In this document: positions 1,653 through 14,635 of the stretch, in pieces
Layout of the letters: every line of letters starts with the position of its first letter
Numbering within the stretch: position 1 is the first letter of the stretch
Virus record (IMG/VR): IMGVR_UViG_3300024346_000432
Span: 1-26,638 of that record
Reading direction: 5' to 3' (one strand)
Source of the DNA: a virus
DNA: 26,638 nucleotides
Translations under genes and position numbers: made by a program
The notes under the pieces: model-generated
Seen by the model: the letters and a program-made list of their open reading frames with translations, nothing else
Database searches by the model: none
Told to the model about the DNA's origin: nothing

Positions 1653-3965
1653 TTACGCTGAGAATGATGCTCCTGTTGGTAAGATGTTGAAATCTAATAC
1701 GATAAATTCAGCTGTTCTAGTAGGTTGTAAGAAAATTTGACCTGCTAAGATGTTTCTATCGATTACATCAGGAGTATTGTTTGATTCATCCATCACTACT
1801 CTAAATGCAAATAAACCTTGTCTTTGTTGGATACCCTCTAAATATGGATTTACTGTATTTAAGAATCTTGAACGCGTTGTTGCTGTATTTTGTTCGAACA
1901 CTAAGTATCTTGAAGTAGAAGCAATATACTTCTTAACTTTGATAAGTAATCTTCTTACGTTAATTCTATCTAATGCAGATGATTTTTCTTGTAAAGTTTT
2001 CTGTCCAAATGCCACGATACCCTCACCAGGGAAAGAAGCGATTGGGTTTACTTTACCTTCATATAATTCATCTCTTTCAGAGTGTGTTAATCTATTCAAT
2101 ACTGAAACTGCTCCAACGATACCACCTCTATTCAAACCTGCTGGTGCGAACCATTCTGCTGCTACAGCATCGTTTGCTGCGAAGATACCTGGCATCAATA
2201 CTGATGGTGGTACTGCAGTTAATTTATTTGTGTTTCTATCGATTGTTTTAACCCACGGGTAGTATGTTCCAACATAGTTAGAATCAACGTTTCCTGCCTG
2301 CTCTACTGCATCACCAATAGTTGAATTTTGTCCAACTACATCACCGATGAAGAATACATCTTCTCTACTCTCACACATTTCAGAAATGTAATCGAATACA
2401 TATGGATGGTCTTCTCTTACAACACCAGGTGCTGCTATTAAATTGATATCGAAATCATCAGGATTAGATACTGAATCAATTGCTTTTTTGTAAGCAACTG
2501 AACCACTTGCTATTGAAGTAGATAAATTATATCCTTGTGAATTACCACCACTTATATCACTACCTTTGTTAATTGCTCTCGTTGGAGTTACACCATCAAA
2601 TCCACCTTGAAAAGCAACGATGAATTGTCTTTTAGAAACATCGTTAGCAGTTAATGGAGTAGTTAATTCTAAACCTAAAATTGTATCTAAACCGAAATCA
2701 ACGTTAGCACCAGTTTCTGCGTTTAAAGGAAGTGGTTTTAAATATTGTAAATTGTTTATTCTAGTTCCAGCAGATTCTAAATCAATACCAGAAAATCTAG
2801 TTGTAGATGATGATGTGTTTACTGCCGAACCAGTTGAGTAAGTTACTGCAGGAACGATAGATTCGACACCATCAACAAAAATTGGGTTAGTATATGCACC
2901 ATGTGCAAACGGACCAGCTATAATTGGGAATGAACCATCTTCTCTAACTTCTACTCTAACAAACTTAGAACGATTTGCGTAATCACCAGTTTCATTTTGT
3001 TTACCATTAGCATCAATTGTTACATTTCTATCACCAATTGCTCTTGCAATGTAATTAGATGATGCAGGGTCTAAGGTTACGTTGTTATATGTTTCCAATA
3101 CAACTTTTTTCTTATCCGTATCTGCAAAACCACGAATTGTTACAGTAAATGTAGAGTAATCAGTTGCTGCAGAATCACCTGCTGCTCTTACGTTTGAAAT
3201 ACCAATTTTATATTGTGTATTATATGGGTTACCATCTCCTAATGTATGGAATTGAAATAACTCATGTCTTTCACCACTAATCAATTGAGATTTAATCCAC
3301 GGAGTAGATGCAAATGTAATATCTTGTGTAAATTCTTGTGTTGGTAATTCAATTAGAGTTACCTTTGAACCAGATACTAAATCATTAGCAACTGCGTTTG
3401 TAGCAGTTTTTTCAAAATAAGTGTATGTGTAAGCATTTTTACCTCCGAATGGAGATTCTCCAAATACATCAGATAAATCATTACCTGCTGCAGGGTCAAT
3501 TGATGCAGATTGGTTATAACCAAGTTCTGAACCACTAATTTGAAATGCTGATGCAGATGGAGATGATGTGATTACCGAACCGGTTAAACCAACATCTTCA
3601 TTATTTTCATTAGTTACGTGTAACGTACCTATAATTTTAGTTCCACCTTGTGCAGTTGAACCACTAACTGCAATTGCAATTGGGTCAACGTGAGAATATC
3701 CACCAACGTGGCCTACACGAACAATAGTTACTGTCCCTGCTTCTCTTAAATAGTTTTGAACTGCGTACCCTGTATAGTATGTTCCATCAGGTGTACCGAA
3801 TATTTCCTCAAATTCTGATTGTGTATTAACCACAGTTGGTAAGAACGCCGGTCCTTTAGCAAAAGGTCCTACTATTGCTGCTCCTATTTCTCCAATTCCC
3901 TGTGCTAAGAATGATAGGTCATTTTCTCTTGTGAATACACCAGGTGATACAATCTTTTCTGCCAT
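1653..3965 (-). CDS. gp18: Contractile tail sheath protein, gp18-like
   Basis: This 770-aa protein is the tail sheath subunit, which surrounds the tail tube and contracts on infection. The N-terminal region with SPGVFTRENDLSF and GAAIVGPFAKGPAFLPT, and the C-terminal region with RVVMDESNNTPDVIDRN and then QPTRTAEFIVLDFNI, are the conserved ends of the T4 gp18 family. The ends form the contractile core; the middle (roughly residues 100-450, rich in Ser, Thr, Asn and Gly) probably makes the outward-facing domains. It is longer than T4 gp18 (659 aa), so the variable middle is probably enlarged. Start choice is supported by TTAGGAG 7 bases before the ATG, with a promoter-like box 39 bases upstream. 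No hairpin terminator is visible in the 55-base gap to the tube gene. Confidence 0.95.
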   Translation of the reverse strand: MAEKIVSPGVFTRENDLSFLAQGIGEIGAAIVGPFAKGPAFLPTVVNTQSEFEEIFGTPDGTYYTGYAVQNYLREAGTVTIVRVGHVGGYSHVDPIAIAVSGSTAQGGTKIIGTLHVTNENNEDVGLTGSVITSSPSASAFQISGSELGYNQSASIDPAAGNDLSDVFGESPFGGKNAYTYTYFEKTATNAVANDLVSGSKVTLIELPTQEFTQDITFASTPWIKSQLISGERHELFQFHTLGDGNPYNTQYKIGISNVRAAGDSAATDYSTFTVTIRGFADTDKKKVVLETYNNVTLDPASSNYIARAIGDRNVTIDANGKQNETGDYANRSKFVRVEVREDGSFPIIAGPFAHGAYTNPIFVDGVESIVPAVTYSTGSAVNTSSSTTRFSGIDLESAGTRINNLQYLKPLPLNAETGANVDFGLDTILGLELTTPLTANDVSKRQFIVAFQGGFDGVTPTRAINKGSDISGGNSQGYNLSTSIASGSVAYKKAIDSVSNPDDFDINLIAAPGVVREDHPYVFDYISEMCESREDVFFIGDVVGQNSTIGDAVEQAGNVDSNYVGTYYPWVKTIDRNTNKLTAVPPSVLMPGIFAANDAVAAEWFAPAGLNRGGIVGAVSVLNRLTHSERDELYEGKVNPIASFPGEGIVAFGQKTLQEKSSALDRINVRRLLIKVKKYIASTSRYLVFEQNTATTRSRFLNTVNPYLEGIQQRQGLFAFRVVMDESNNTPDVIDRNILAGQIFLQPTRTAEFIVLDFNILPTGASFSA

Positions 3966-4061: not shown

Positions 4062-4331
4062 TTATTTTTCTAGTGGGGTGAATATTCCTGTTGTAGGGTC
4101 ATAATCACCATCTCCGTATTTTTCGTTTAACCCTTTGAATAGAGTATCTTCCTTCGCAACTAATTCAGTATATTTAGCTAATACACTTTCTTCATTTTGT
4201 TCTAATTCTTCAAGTCTCTTTCTTTTTTCAATTTGAATTTGACCTAATTGGGTAAAAACTGCACCGACATCAAATCTTAATTGATTGATTTCTTTAACCT
4301 CGTCTTCCGTAAACTTAATTTCTTCTGCCAT
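4062..4331 (-). CDS. Small coiled-coil protein of unknown function
   Basis: This 89-aa acidic protein is mostly helical by eye. Residues about 6-70 are rich in Glu, Lys, Leu and Gln with heptad-like spacing (for example FTQLGQIQIEKRKRLEELEQ), suggesting a coiled coil. A short acidic tail with GDGDYDPTTGIFTP follows. I do not recognise a named family. Similar small helical proteins occur among structural genes of T4-like phages, so a virion or assembly role is plausible but inferred. It has its own promoter-like box 35 bases upstream and lies just upstream of the tail sheath gene. The ribosome site is weak (only AT-rich sequence before the ATG), unlike the sheath and tube genes. Confidence 0.7.
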   Translation of the reverse strand: MAEEIKFTEDEVKEINQLRFDVGAVFTQLGQIQIEKRKRLEELEQNEESVLAKYTELVAKEDTLFKGLNEKYGDGDYDPTTGIFTPLEK

Positions 4332-4401: not shown

Positions 4402-5688
4402 TTACCTATTAAATGTTAAAGTTGTAGACCAACTACTTTTCAATCCGTGGTCAATTGCTCTAACTCTACAATAGTAAGTTCCTGCAGATAAAAGTGAATT
4501 AACCTCTAATCCAGTTGTACTCCATTCTGAATAATCTAATGTTGGTGAACTAAAATCAGAGTTGTTATCAATTTGTACATCATATGCAGTAACACCAGTG
4601 GTACCAGTACCAGTCACAGCAGTCCAATCAACACGTGGTGATGAATATGCTAATCCCGTTGGTGCAGATGGTGCACCTAAATCAGAGTGTGAATTACCAC
4701 CTTTATTGTGAGTAATATACCCATTAACTAAATAAGTATCGTTTTCTTCAACGTCAATTGAAACAATTTCAGTTGTTTCGTTTTCTAATGTAATAGATGT
4801 TATTTCTACTTCTTCTAATCCGGTTTCAGTTGATTTAACTAATTTATCACCAACTTCTAATAAGAATACTTGTTTGAATTTATATTCACCACTTGATAAT
4901 TCTTTAACTAAAAGTGGATGTTCTGATGTTGCAGTAATTTGTCCGTTATTAATACTATAATATTTTCCTGTGAAAGAATATACTACATTTACAACAGTCA
5001 CATCTTTAGGAGTTGTACTTAATGTAGATGTTGACCAATCATAGAATGTTCCGTCTGAATTTTCATCCAAACCACCGATTGCATATCCTTTTAATACATC
5101 ACCTTCTTCAATTTCACCGATTTCTTTTATACTTCCATCTGCCATTAAAATTGGAGAATCTGATGTTAAACAAAGTGCAACGGAGTTACCATCATAAGAA
5201 TCTACTGAATAAACTGTTTTATCTTTATTTGCACCATATCCGTTACCTATACCAATGTGGTCATTAAAACCATCATTGAATACACATCTAATAGTGTTAG
5301 TTTGGATAGATTGTAATACTGCTTGAGAACTAGGATGTTGTGGGTTCATATTAGATACACTAAATGTAGCACTTGCACCACTATTTGTTCCTAATGTGAT
5401 AAAAGAACCTGCAGGTACTGTCCATGTAAAGTTTGCTGCTCTACCACTTATTCTATTAAAATTAGCACCATCACCACTAAAACCTATTGTGTAAGTTTCA
5501 GTAGTTCCTTCTACTGCATAAGTAAACCCACTAACCGAACCAACTGAATCTATTGCGAATGATGACATTGCGATTGGACCAGTTGTATTTCCCTTTGCTG
5601 CAGATAATGCTCTTGCACCTGCTGCTACTCCGGTTGCTGAACCTAATGAGTTTAAACTTAATGTATTACCTGATGTTAATGTTGGCAT
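4402..5688 (-). CDS. Structural/adhesin protein with internal Hint (intein-like) domain and C-terminal fibronectin type III domain
   Basis: The 428-aa product has three parts. Residues 1-172 are a Ser/Gly/Thr-rich region typical of phage structural or adhesin proteins, with no family I can name. Residues 173-328 form a minimal Hint domain: Cys173 starts block A (CLTSDSPILMADGS), block B is TATSEHPLLV with His256, and the C-terminal block is TYLVNGYITHN ending His327-Asn328. No homing endonuclease insert is present. The next residue is Lys329, not Cys, Ser or Thr, so standard protein splicing lacks its +1 nucleophile; this matches the pattern of A-type bacterial intein-like domains, which can cleave at their ends. 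Residues about 339-428 form a fibronectin type III domain (SAPTGLAYS, then TAYDVQIDN, then GTYYCRVRAID). AGGAG 8 bases before the start overlaps the stop of the glycosyltransferase gene. Autocleavage releasing the FN3 domain is inference. Confidence 0.85.
   Translation of the reverse strand: MPTLTSGNTLSLNSLGSATGVAAGARALSAAKGNTTGPIAMSSFAIDSVGSVSGFTYAVEGTTETYTIGFSGDGANFNRISGRAANFTWTVPAGSFITLGTNSGASATFSVSNMNPQHPSSQAVLQSIQTNTIRCVFNDGFNDHIGIGNGYGANKDKTVYSVDSYDGNSVALCLTSDSPILMADGSIKEIGEIEEGDVLKGYAIGGLDENSDGTFYDWSTSTLSTTPKDVTVVNVVYSFTGKYYSINNGQITATSEHPLLVKELSSGEYKFKQVFLLEVGDKLVKSTETGLEEVEITSITLENETTEIVSIDVEENDTYLVNGYITHNKGGNSHSDLGAPSAPTGLAYSSPRVDWTAVTGTGTTGVTAYDVQIDNNSDFSSPTLDYSEWSTTGLEVNSLLSAGTYYCRVRAIDHGLKSSWSTTLTFNR
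4705..5172 (-). other. Hint / intein-like domain, codons Cys173 to Asn328
   Basis: This marks the in-frame intein-like segment of 156 codons. The N-terminal Cys, the TxxH block B and the terminal His-Asn are all present. The residue after Asn is Lys, followed by Gly-Gly. Its size equals that of minimal inteins without endonuclease. Confidence 0.85.
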
Positions 5689-5692
5689 ATTT

Positions 5693-5711
5693 CTCCTATA
5701 TGTTATAAATA
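5693..5711 (-). promoter_or_regulatory. Promoter-like box and ribosome site inside the end of the glycosyltransferase gene
   Basis: TATAAATA (plus strand 5704-5711) lies within the last codons of the upstream gene, and AGGAG (minus strand, 5693-5697) overlaps that gene's TAG stop at 5696-5698. The box is only 15 bases from the ATG at 5686-5688, the shortest distance in the set. The Hint-domain gene could thus be transcribed with a very short leader or by read-through. Confidence 0.4.
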
Positions 5712-6691
5712 TCCAATAAAGATTCTATCCAATAATCTTTATCAGTAAAATTTCGTTTCATAAACGTTTTTATTTTGTTAAACCAAAATAATTTCGTTTC
5801 GTGTGATTGTAAAGTAATCTCACTATAAATATCACTAAATTCCTTTTTAGACGATGCACGATATGGATACTCAAAATCTTTACACCAATTTGAGTGTATT
5901 ATGGGTAGTTTACCTCTATCTACTGCTTCAAATATTGAATACCCAAATGGTTCGGATGTAAATGCAGAATGTGATATTCCCCAATCCATATTATAAAATT
6001 TATCTTTAAATTCTGAATTATAATGATATATCTTAGATTTAGATAAATCTATCTTTACACCATTTTTCCAAAGTAAATTAAATTCTACGGAATTTGTAAA
6101 AATATATGATGGTAACCCATCTAAATAATGTGGATTCTTTCTACCTTCACTTCTAGCAGCAAATCCTATTTTATTTGATTCAGATAAAGGTAATTCTAAT
6201 TTAAATTCGTAAAAATTAGGTATGTTAATATTTTTGTGTAATATTTCGTATAATCCAACCCAAATATTATGTTTAGATGAATTAATAACATCCGATTCCC
6301 ATTCAGAACTTAAATATGGATGCCATGCGATTGGTACATCACTTAATATTTGTGATTTTAAAATATGGTCTACTGAATTATGTAAAACATTGGAATGGAT
6401 TTTATCCTTATTATCTATAATTGGGTTTGTAGGTGTATAATGGCCGTGTAAAATGTTTATTCTACGTGCACCATTACATAATTCTTCAAATTTTTGAATA
6501 TTATCACCATGCCAATAAGTTTCTATTGGAAATTGGTAATCTTCATTACCATTTGGTTTGTTTCTATGAATTAGAAGTATAGGTTTAACATCTAATTTAG
6601 GTGCAACTAACTCCATCCATAAATTTACCCAAATATCAGAACCAGCATTTACCCACGGACCACCGCCAGTTGTATAATATACATCGTACAT
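5696..6691 (-). CDS. GT-B glycosyltransferase (GT4-like)
   Basis: This 331-aa protein looks like a GT-B fold glycosyltransferase. A glycine-rich loop near the N-terminus (TTGGGPWVNAGSDIW, residues 7-21) fits the acceptor half. IGFAARSEGRKNP (residues 175-187) fits the donor-phosphate region with Arg/Lys. EPFGYSIFE (residues 247-255) is the EX7E motif of retaining GT4-type enzymes, followed by DRGKLPIIHS. It is somewhat short for GT4 enzymes but both halves seem present. No membrane segment or signal peptide is seen, so it should act in the host cytoplasm. Sugar donor and acceptor cannot be read from the sequence. It lies in the fibre cluster, 17 bases after the fibrinogen-like adhesin gene; candidate acceptors include the Ser/Thr-rich fibres (inference) or a host/phage glycan. 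No promoter box is visible before it, so it is probably co-transcribed. Confidence 0.75.
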   Translation of the reverse strand: MYDVYYTTGGGPWVNAGSDIWVNLWMELVAPKLDVKPILLIHRNKPNGNEDYQFPIETYWHGDNIQKFEELCNGARRINILHGHYTPTNPIIDNKDKIHSNVLHNSVDHILKSQILSDVPIAWHPYLSSEWESDVINSSKHNIWVGLYEILHKNINIPNFYEFKLELPLSESNKIGFAARSEGRKNPHYLDGLPSYIFTNSVEFNLLWKNGVKIDLSKSKIYHYNSEFKDKFYNMDWGISHSAFTSEPFGYSIFEAVDRGKLPIIHSNWCKDFEYPYRASSKKEFSDIYSEITLQSHETKLFWFNKIKTFMKRNFTDKDYWIESLLDIYNI

Positions 6692-13087: not shown

Positions 13088-14635
13088 TTATAATCCGTTT
13101 TCTAATTTATTAATTCTGTTTGTTAATTCTTCTATTTTCGATTGTTGTTCTTTAATACCCTCAATCAATAAAGCAACTAACTTATCATATTTAACTGCTT
13201 TGTACCCATTTTCACGAGTTTGAACTAACTGTGGAAGAACTTCTTCTATCTCTTGAGCAATAACACCAACATCGTTTCCTTCGTATCCATGCTCAATCTG
13301 ATTTTCTTGTTTCCAATCGTATGTATTACCACTAATCTTAGAAATCTTTTCTAAAGGGTTTTCGATTGGTTTGATATTTTCTTTAAAACGAATATCTGAA
13401 GATGAATAAGCTACGATATCATTTGTTGCATCAATTCTACCAGCGGTAGCAGATGCAGCCATTCCTATACCCAATGAGTTAAATTGTACGTTTGCAGAAG
13501 TACCACCGCCTGTTGTAGATGATAGAGTTACTTGTGATGAACCGGAAACTGTCCCTGTTGGTAAAATAGCAGTTACACTTCCTGCAGTTATGGTGCCAAT
13601 TGTAGTAATTGAATCATCACCACTATATGTTCCACCCGCAACAGCTGCCAATGTAGAGTTATATGCTTGAACGTTTGTTCCAATTGCTAAACCTAAATTA
13701 GTTCGTGCAGAAGAAGTATCGGTTAAATCTGATAAATTAGATGATTTTGCTAACTTACCATCTACTAAAGTATTTAATGTAGAATCTCCAGATGCAAGAG
13801 ATGCAGAAATTTCTAATAAAGTATCAAATGCTGCGGAAGCACCACCGATTAAATCAGTTAATTCTTGTTGAACGTATGCAGTTGTGGCAATTTGAGTTGA
13901 ATTTGTATTTACAGCTGCAGTTGGTGCAACTGGAGTTCCAGTGAAAGTAGGAGATGTGAACATCGTTGCCTTACTTTCATTGGTTACGTTTCCTAAACCA
14001 ACATGAGTAGCAGTTACACCACTAACGGTACCTGTAAAGGTAGGTGATGAGAACATTGTAGCTTTTGATTCATTAGTTACGTTTCCTAATGATAAGAAAG
14101 TTTTAACTGATGATGCAGAACCACTTACTACTGACAATGAATTGTTGTAATCTAATACATTTGCATCAAAATTAGTAATCGAATCTGCATTTACTTGAGA
14201 TGAACCACTAATTGTACCTGTTGGTAATAAAGGAGTTACTTGTGATGAACCACTAACAATCCCTCTGCCAATTGTTTCATATGATGATGTTGCACCATTT
14301 AAATTGGAAAGTTGTGTATTAACTGAACCGGTATATGTTGCTAAAGTTGAAAATTTAGTATCAACCGAGCCAGTATAAGTTGCAAGGGTAGAATTCTTAG
14401 TATCTTGAGATGAAGTATATGATTCCAATAAATCCAATCTGGCATCTTGTGAACCAGTATCAACATTTAATTGGGATATTTTATTTTCTAACGATGCAGA
14501 AAATGTTGCAGGGTCACCTATTCCCGTGATTGAACCACTAAATGAACCACTATAAACACCACCAGCAGGTAATACAAATGTTGCACCTGATGCGAAGGTT
14601 AATGAACCTGAAACTATTGGACTATGTATTATCAT
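13088..14635 (-). CDS. Tail fibre with S74 intramolecular chaperone
   Basis: This 515-aa fibre has a short N-terminus (IIHSPIVSGSLTFASG) unlike the KxKR module of its neighbours, two 14-residue NSTLATYTGS-type repeats around residues 75-105, SGSSQV repeats, and a middle with two copies of GLGNVTNESKATMF followed by SPTFTGT, a repeat style widespread in phage tail fibres. NLSDLTDTSSARTNLGL is another common fibre motif. Residues about 412-515 are an S74 chaperone (SSDIRFKENI with likely Ser413 and Lys418, GVIAQEI, and a C-terminal helical stalk). Its promoter-like box is 27 bases upstream and AAGGA precedes the ATG. Part of the chaperone coding DNA is identical to that of the 1278-aa fibre over 54 bases (13175-13228). 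Confidence 0.85.
   Translation of the reverse strand: MIIHSPIVSGSLTFASGATFVLPAGGVYSGSFSGSITGIGDPATFSASLENKISQLNVDTGSQDARLDLLESYTSSQDTKNSTLATYTGSVDTKFSTLATYTGSVNTQLSNLNGATSSYETIGRGIVSGSSQVTPLLPTGTISGSSQVNADSITNFDANVLDYNNSLSVVSGSASSVKTFLSLGNVTNESKATMFSSPTFTGTVSGVTATHVGLGNVTNESKATMFTSPTFTGTPVAPTAAVNTNSTQIATTAYVQQELTDLIGGASAAFDTLLEISASLASGDSTLNTLVDGKLAKSSNLSDLTDTSSARTNLGLAIGTNVQAYNSTLAAVAGGTYSGDDSITTIGTITAGSVTAILPTGTVSGSSQVTLSSTTGGGTSANVQFNSLGIGMAASATAGRIDATNDIVAYSSSDIRFKENIKPIENPLEKISKISGNTYDWKQENQIEHGYEGNDVGVIAQEIEEVLPQLVQTRENGYKAVKYDKLVALLIEGIKEQQSKIEELTNRINKLENGL

Follow-up and report, generated by a model that had tools for sequence, protein, structure and literature searches.

An invariant lysine after a putative autoprocessing Hint domain that is fixed in a tail-region gene of T4-like phages

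BIL domains are usually viewed as intein relatives that lack a +1 nucleophile and whose role is unclear. We describe a family of phage proteins in which such a Hint domain is built permanently into a gene of a large, uncultured T4-like lineage, and in which an odd +1 residue, lysine, is kept without exception. Our preferred reading, to which we assign a probability of roughly 0.4, is that the domain autoprocesses in the manner of BILs, as a constant feature of its tail-region gene, with an amine of Lys329 resolving a thioester at Cys173 and so ligating the flanking domains. The family makes it testable whether lysine can stand in for Cys, Ser, or Thr in protein splicing.

The window, which is the whole 26,638-nucleotide stretch analysed here (IMG/VR record IMGVR_UViG_3300024346_000432), encodes on its minus strand a protein of 428 amino acids with a computed mass of 45.1 kDa (ORF 5688→4402). 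Translation of the interval 4402-5688 on the plus strand is stop-rich. A promoter and terminator scan gave signals no higher than those in shuffles. The features of the gene are:

4402..5688, minus strand: gene for the 428-aa Ig-like / Hint / FN3-like protein (ORF call; 135 distinct homologues with N domain and Hint)
5173..5688, minus strand: N-extein, residues 1-172, Ig-like region (alignment of 58 and AlphaFold2 model)
4705..5172, minus strand: Hint domain, residues 173-328 (NCBIfam TIGR01445, PDB profile matches, Foldseek)
5170..5172, minus strand: Cys173 codon, Hint residue 1 (invariant, 135/135)
4918..4920, minus strand: His257 codon, block B TxxH (invariant in 58)
4705..4710, minus strand: His327-Asn328 codons, block G (invariant in 58)
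4702..4704, minus strand: Lys329 codon, the +1 residue (Lys in 133/133)
4405..4704, minus strand: C-extein, residues 329-428, a conserved linker followed by an FN3-like domain (AlphaFold2 strands 344-427; Pfam fn3 and Ig_Rha78A_N below cut-off)

Translation of 5688→4402 puts Cys173, His327, Asn328, and Lys329 exactly where the original prediction had them. Block B is likewise present, but its histidine is His257, in T254-S-E-H257, and not His256 as first given. The claim that the Hint catalytic set is intact is borne out by an alignment of 58 sequences, comprising the window protein and 57 relatives mutually below 88% identity, in which C173, H257, H327, and N328 are each invariant, as are L172 and K329. 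D163, Y165, and D166 are also invariant ahead of the N-terminal cut site (58/58 each). They fall within a near-invariant D-x-Y-D-G-N stretch at residues 163-168 (5185-5202, minus strand), which is possibly part of the processing site.

At 156 residues, the Hint domain lacks an endonuclease insert. Its score against the NCBIfam intein_Nterm model (TIGR01445), 29.4 bits, exceeds the curated cut-off of 24.5, and 57 of the 58 family members match this model at E<=0.01. Matches to Pfam Intein_splicing, PT-HINT, and fn3 fall below cut-off, and nothing in PHROGs matches the Hint-bearing protein. An AlphaFold2 model made from the 58 homologues (mean pLDDT 85) has three domains: Ig-like strands around residues 48-162, the Hint domain (173-327), and, from 344 to 427, an FN3-like sandwich. 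Low confidence is limited to 167-170 and 330-335, short stretches flanking the cut sites; the pTM is low (0.45), so the relative placement of the domains is unreliable. The C-terminal domain had been named fibronectin type III; the model gives it an FN3-like sandwich, although its Pfam fn3 match is under cut-off. Kinship to BIL domains, also predicted, is upheld by both sequence and fold. Profile searches of PDB sequences place the BIL of Clostridium (2lwy) and BIL2 of Tetrahymena (6y75/6tmm) at or near the top, and the best Foldseek match in the PDB is BIL2 (E 1.6e-10, TMt 0.76), with further matches to 2lwy (TMt 0.80), inteins, and the hedgehog Hint domain. The shared BIL2 fold bears indirectly on the predicted convergence of Cys173, His257, and Asn328 in one active site.

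The family was assembled from IMG/VR by merging the results of a motif scan with those of searches in which the query was either the entire protein or its N-domain. Its architecture in IMG/VR is fixed in three parts, an Ig-like domain, Hint, and an FN3-like domain, which occur together in every complete member, the C-terminal part being conserved as well. All 306 ORFs with the N-domain carry Hint; they include 135 distinct members, and each of the 135 has Cys as residue 1 of Hint. The non-canonical +1 residue noted at the outset proves to be general: it is Lys in 133 of 133 distinct ORFs, the remaining two being truncated, though family members share ancestry and counts such as this are not independent events. 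Position +2 varies among the same 133 ORFs (Gly 127, Glu 3, Ser 2, Asp 1), and in the alignment of 58 Lys329 is the sole invariant position of the C-extein ahead of W355. Among relatives, the lysine is encoded by both AAA (75) and AAG (5).

The +1 codon was absent from every search pattern, and the lysine is thus not a product of retrieval. As a control, we scanned IMG/VR for NGIITHN, which is one residue off the family motif NGYITHN. Outside the family, the +1 residue among the matches listed was Cys (54), Thr (26), or Ser (14) in 94 of 98 cases, with one each of Arg, Phe, Asn, and Tyr; family members with NGYITHN had Lys in 97 of 97 among the matches listed. We rejected chance or a sampling artefact as the source of Lys+1, as retrieval with the N-domain alone agrees and a near-identical motif elsewhere is followed by Cys, Thr, or Ser. 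At the level of sequence, the invariance of Lys329 points to a selected, specific role rather than merely a missing nucleophile, because cleavage alone should be compatible with many different +1 residues.

The gene sits between a gene resembling GT-B-fold glycosyltransferases and the genes for p89, tail sheath, and tail tube. The neighbours located in the window are:

5696..6691, minus strand: upstream glycosyltransferase-like gene, 331 aa (neighbour in 121 loci; GT-B fold matches)
4062..4331, minus strand: downstream p89 gene, 89 aa (conserved neighbour)
1653..3965, minus strand: tail sheath gene (PHROG and Pfam; comes after p89 in 129 loci)

The order p89 then tail sheath is found downstream of the Hint gene in 129 loci. 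A gap of 7 bases separates the Hint gene from the upstream 331-aa glycosyltransferase-like gene, which is very strongly conserved (mean column identity 78% over 43 relatives) yet gives no match in Pfam or PHROG. Gp23-type capsid proteins are present in four of six larger records, which identifies these as T4-like phages. The p89, sheath, and tube genes also occur in Microcystis phage Mel-JY01 and Flavobacterium phage immuto; in the stretches of these two genomes examined, neither Hint nor the glycosyltransferase-like gene was detected. One scan of GTDB genomes found no relatives, and psbA, a sign of a cyanobacterial host, was in none of 10 records. Between 9942 and 22086, the minus strand encodes several long fibre-like proteins with many NSTLATYTGS and SGSSQV repeats. 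One of them (13088-14635) has a C-terminal Peptidase_S74 chaperone domain (Pfam), and the C termini of two further fibre-like proteins resemble it by eye. As its gene neighbours those for fibre, sheath, and tube, the Hint protein likely has a role associated with the phage tail; the original term, adhesin, is putative.

The Hint domain is probably active as an autoprocessing domain. We infer the following scheme, which covers activity, step order, and Lys329 as acceptor, and likewise excision, cleavage, and any isopeptide bond. Cys173 would attack the Leu172-Cys173 bond with assistance from His257, yielding a thioester. Asn328 would cyclise with assistance from His327, freeing a C-terminal fragment that begins with Lys329. 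An amine of Lys329, alpha or epsilon, would then accept the acyl group, so that the 17.4-kDa Ig-like part is linked to the 10.6-kDa FN3-like part in a 28.0-kDa product and a 17.1-kDa Hint domain is released; hydrolytic cleavage would compete with ligation. The computed masses of partly processed species are 34.5 kDa for N+Hint and 27.7 kDa for Hint+C. An alpha-linked junction is predicted to give the tryptic peptide TVYSVDSYDGNSVALK (1716.82 Da monoisotopic, computed). An epsilon-linked junction would withstand trypsin at Lys329 and give a branched tryptic peptide of TVYSVDSYDGNSVAL and KGGNSHSDLGAPSAPTGLAYSSPR (3896.85 Da, computed), in which the alpha-amine of the lysine is free.

The scheme builds on type-A BILs, which form an N-terminal thioester, undergo Asn cyclisation, and mostly cleave; ligation has been proposed to occur through the freed amine of the C-terminal fragment (PMC4031507). 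The original statement that canonical splicing cannot occur went too far, as A-type BILs without a +1 nucleophile can splice (PMC4031507). Lysine at +1 gives the freed C-terminal fragment both an alpha- and an epsilon-amine in place, and this lysine is invariant; we therefore favour amine-mediated resolution. A more novel reading, which we hold doubtful, makes Lys329 a true +1 nucleophile: with its side-chain amine it would attack the Cys173 thioester, excising Hint and linking the Ig-like to the FN3-like part by an epsilon-isopeptide bond. To our knowledge, lysine is not an established +1 nucleophile among inteins, and it is largely protonated at neutral pH, which counts against Lys329 as acceptor. 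BIL2 is reported to hand its thioester to a lysine epsilon-amine, forming an isopeptide bond (PMC8616854). We rejected BIL2 as a direct precedent for Lys+1: its own +1 residue is Met, and its acceptor lysine must therefore lie elsewhere.

A serious rival to amine-mediated resolution at Lys329 is pure self-cleavage, in which a cut at either end of Hint, or at both, parts the Ig-like from the FN3-like region, with Lys329 tuning Asn cyclisation or being needed at the new N terminus. We consider it possible, if somewhat unlikely. The products of type-A BILs are mainly those of cleavage (PMC4031507; PMC7664689), and Lys329 is no canonical nucleophile. Against the preferred reading, related phage-tail Hint domains have Ala, Thr, or Arg at +1, so this type of domain can manage without Lys, and the invariant lysine could instead adjust C-terminal cleavage or serve the mature product. 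Pure cleavage should nevertheless tolerate many +1 residues, yet the residue is Lys in 133 of 133, and the three parts are unseparated in every complete member, with the C-terminal part itself conserved. The invariance of lysine at +1 is also left unaccounted for if the thioester at Cys173 acts in trans, handing the N-extein, which ends in the peptide TVYSVDSYDGNSVAL, to a lysine or other nucleophile on a virion protein or the host surface. In favour of this, BIL2 of Tetrahymena reportedly attaches ubl4 to further substrates, Ras among them (PMC8616854), and the Hint gene adjoins fibre and sheath genes; we think such a transfer to a putative acceptor unlikely.

There are two further readings. 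Hint might be a catalytically silent, rigid structural module, as the AlphaFold2 model folds as one chain. A structural role needs no invariance of the kind seen at C173, H257, H327, and N328 (all 58/58), and we judge it quite improbable. The intein_Nterm match and the mini-intein size could also suggest a canonical mobile mini-intein that is decaying after mutation of its +1 residue. This is very improbable: Lys never reverts to Cys, Ser, or Thr, and Hint lies between separately folded domains. We rejected a mobile intein, since every N-domain ORF carries Hint (0 of 306 without it). Amine-mediated resolution at Lys329 remains our preferred reading. If lysine splicing is true, proteins could be linked by isopeptide bonds with no enzyme, and the maturation of phage structural proteins would include a new step. 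Should the side chain of Lys329 be the nucleophile, the family would represent a splicing class in which lysine replaces Cys, Ser, or Thr and which builds a phage tail-region protein.

Several known Hint systems share parts of this design. Hedgehog Hog proteins have a C-terminal Hint with a sterol-recognition region and no terminal His-Asn, whereas the phage Hint is internal and ends in His-Asn. Canonical class 1 mini-inteins of viruses share the fold, Cys1, TxxH, and His-Asn with the phage Hint, but they are mobile and have intein-free alleles; the phage domain has neither Cys, Ser, or Thr at +1 nor intein-free homologues.

Hint domains recur in phage tail proteins, and not all need Lys+1. 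We found no open-access paper that studies such domains. Phage NCTB and the Erwinia/Dickeya jumbo phages (such as Y3, AD1, and Yoloswag) share with our family a tail-annotated Hint protein, the order Ig-like then Hint, and the block-F Asp. Their Hint domains, at about 30% identity to the family, lie at the very end of the protein, where only a few residues follow, and their +1 residue is Ala, Thr, or Lys and not fixed, in contrast to the fixed Lys described here. Phage Hint domains at the extreme C terminus occur in LR756508 (L379; 1990-3288), NCTB (L056; 6744-7226), L296/L310/L324, and L052, and the tails that follow His-Asn in such domains are short and often basic (HNKH*, HNKVD*, HNRKIGFE*, HNRK*). 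In the Dickeya/Erwinia jumbo phages (L380-L384), an Ig-like "putative tail protein" has a C-terminal Hint with Thr at +1 and a conserved tail of about 11 residues, TD..A.AEK. These phages are cultured, which makes virion proteomics feasible.

BIL2 of Tetrahymena BUBL1 (6y75/6tmm) is the best fold match and, like the phage Hint, is seated between two separate domains. It makes an isopeptide bond by lysine chemistry, and the phage Hint is tied to it by fold relation. The acceptor lysine of BIL2 belongs to another part of ubl5 or to a different substrate, whereas the phage lysine is at +1; the host of BIL2 is a eukaryotic polyubiquitin-like protein with ubiquitin-like flanks, in place of Ig-like and FN3-like ones. 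The Clostridium thermocellum BIL (2lwy), the best sequence-profile match, shares Cys1, TxxH, the terminal His-Asn, the fold, and the lack of a canonical +1 nucleophile. The phage domain groups with the BILs by both profile and fold, and the A-type BIL signature first ascribed to it holds for Cys1, TxxH, His-Asn, and a +1 residue other than Cys, Ser, or Thr. It does not extend to the setting: published accounts place A-type BILs in the variable parts of bacterial proteins that are not conserved, whereas the architecture of the phage family is fixed, its flanks, C-terminal domain, and gene order are conserved, and its Lys+1 is invariant.
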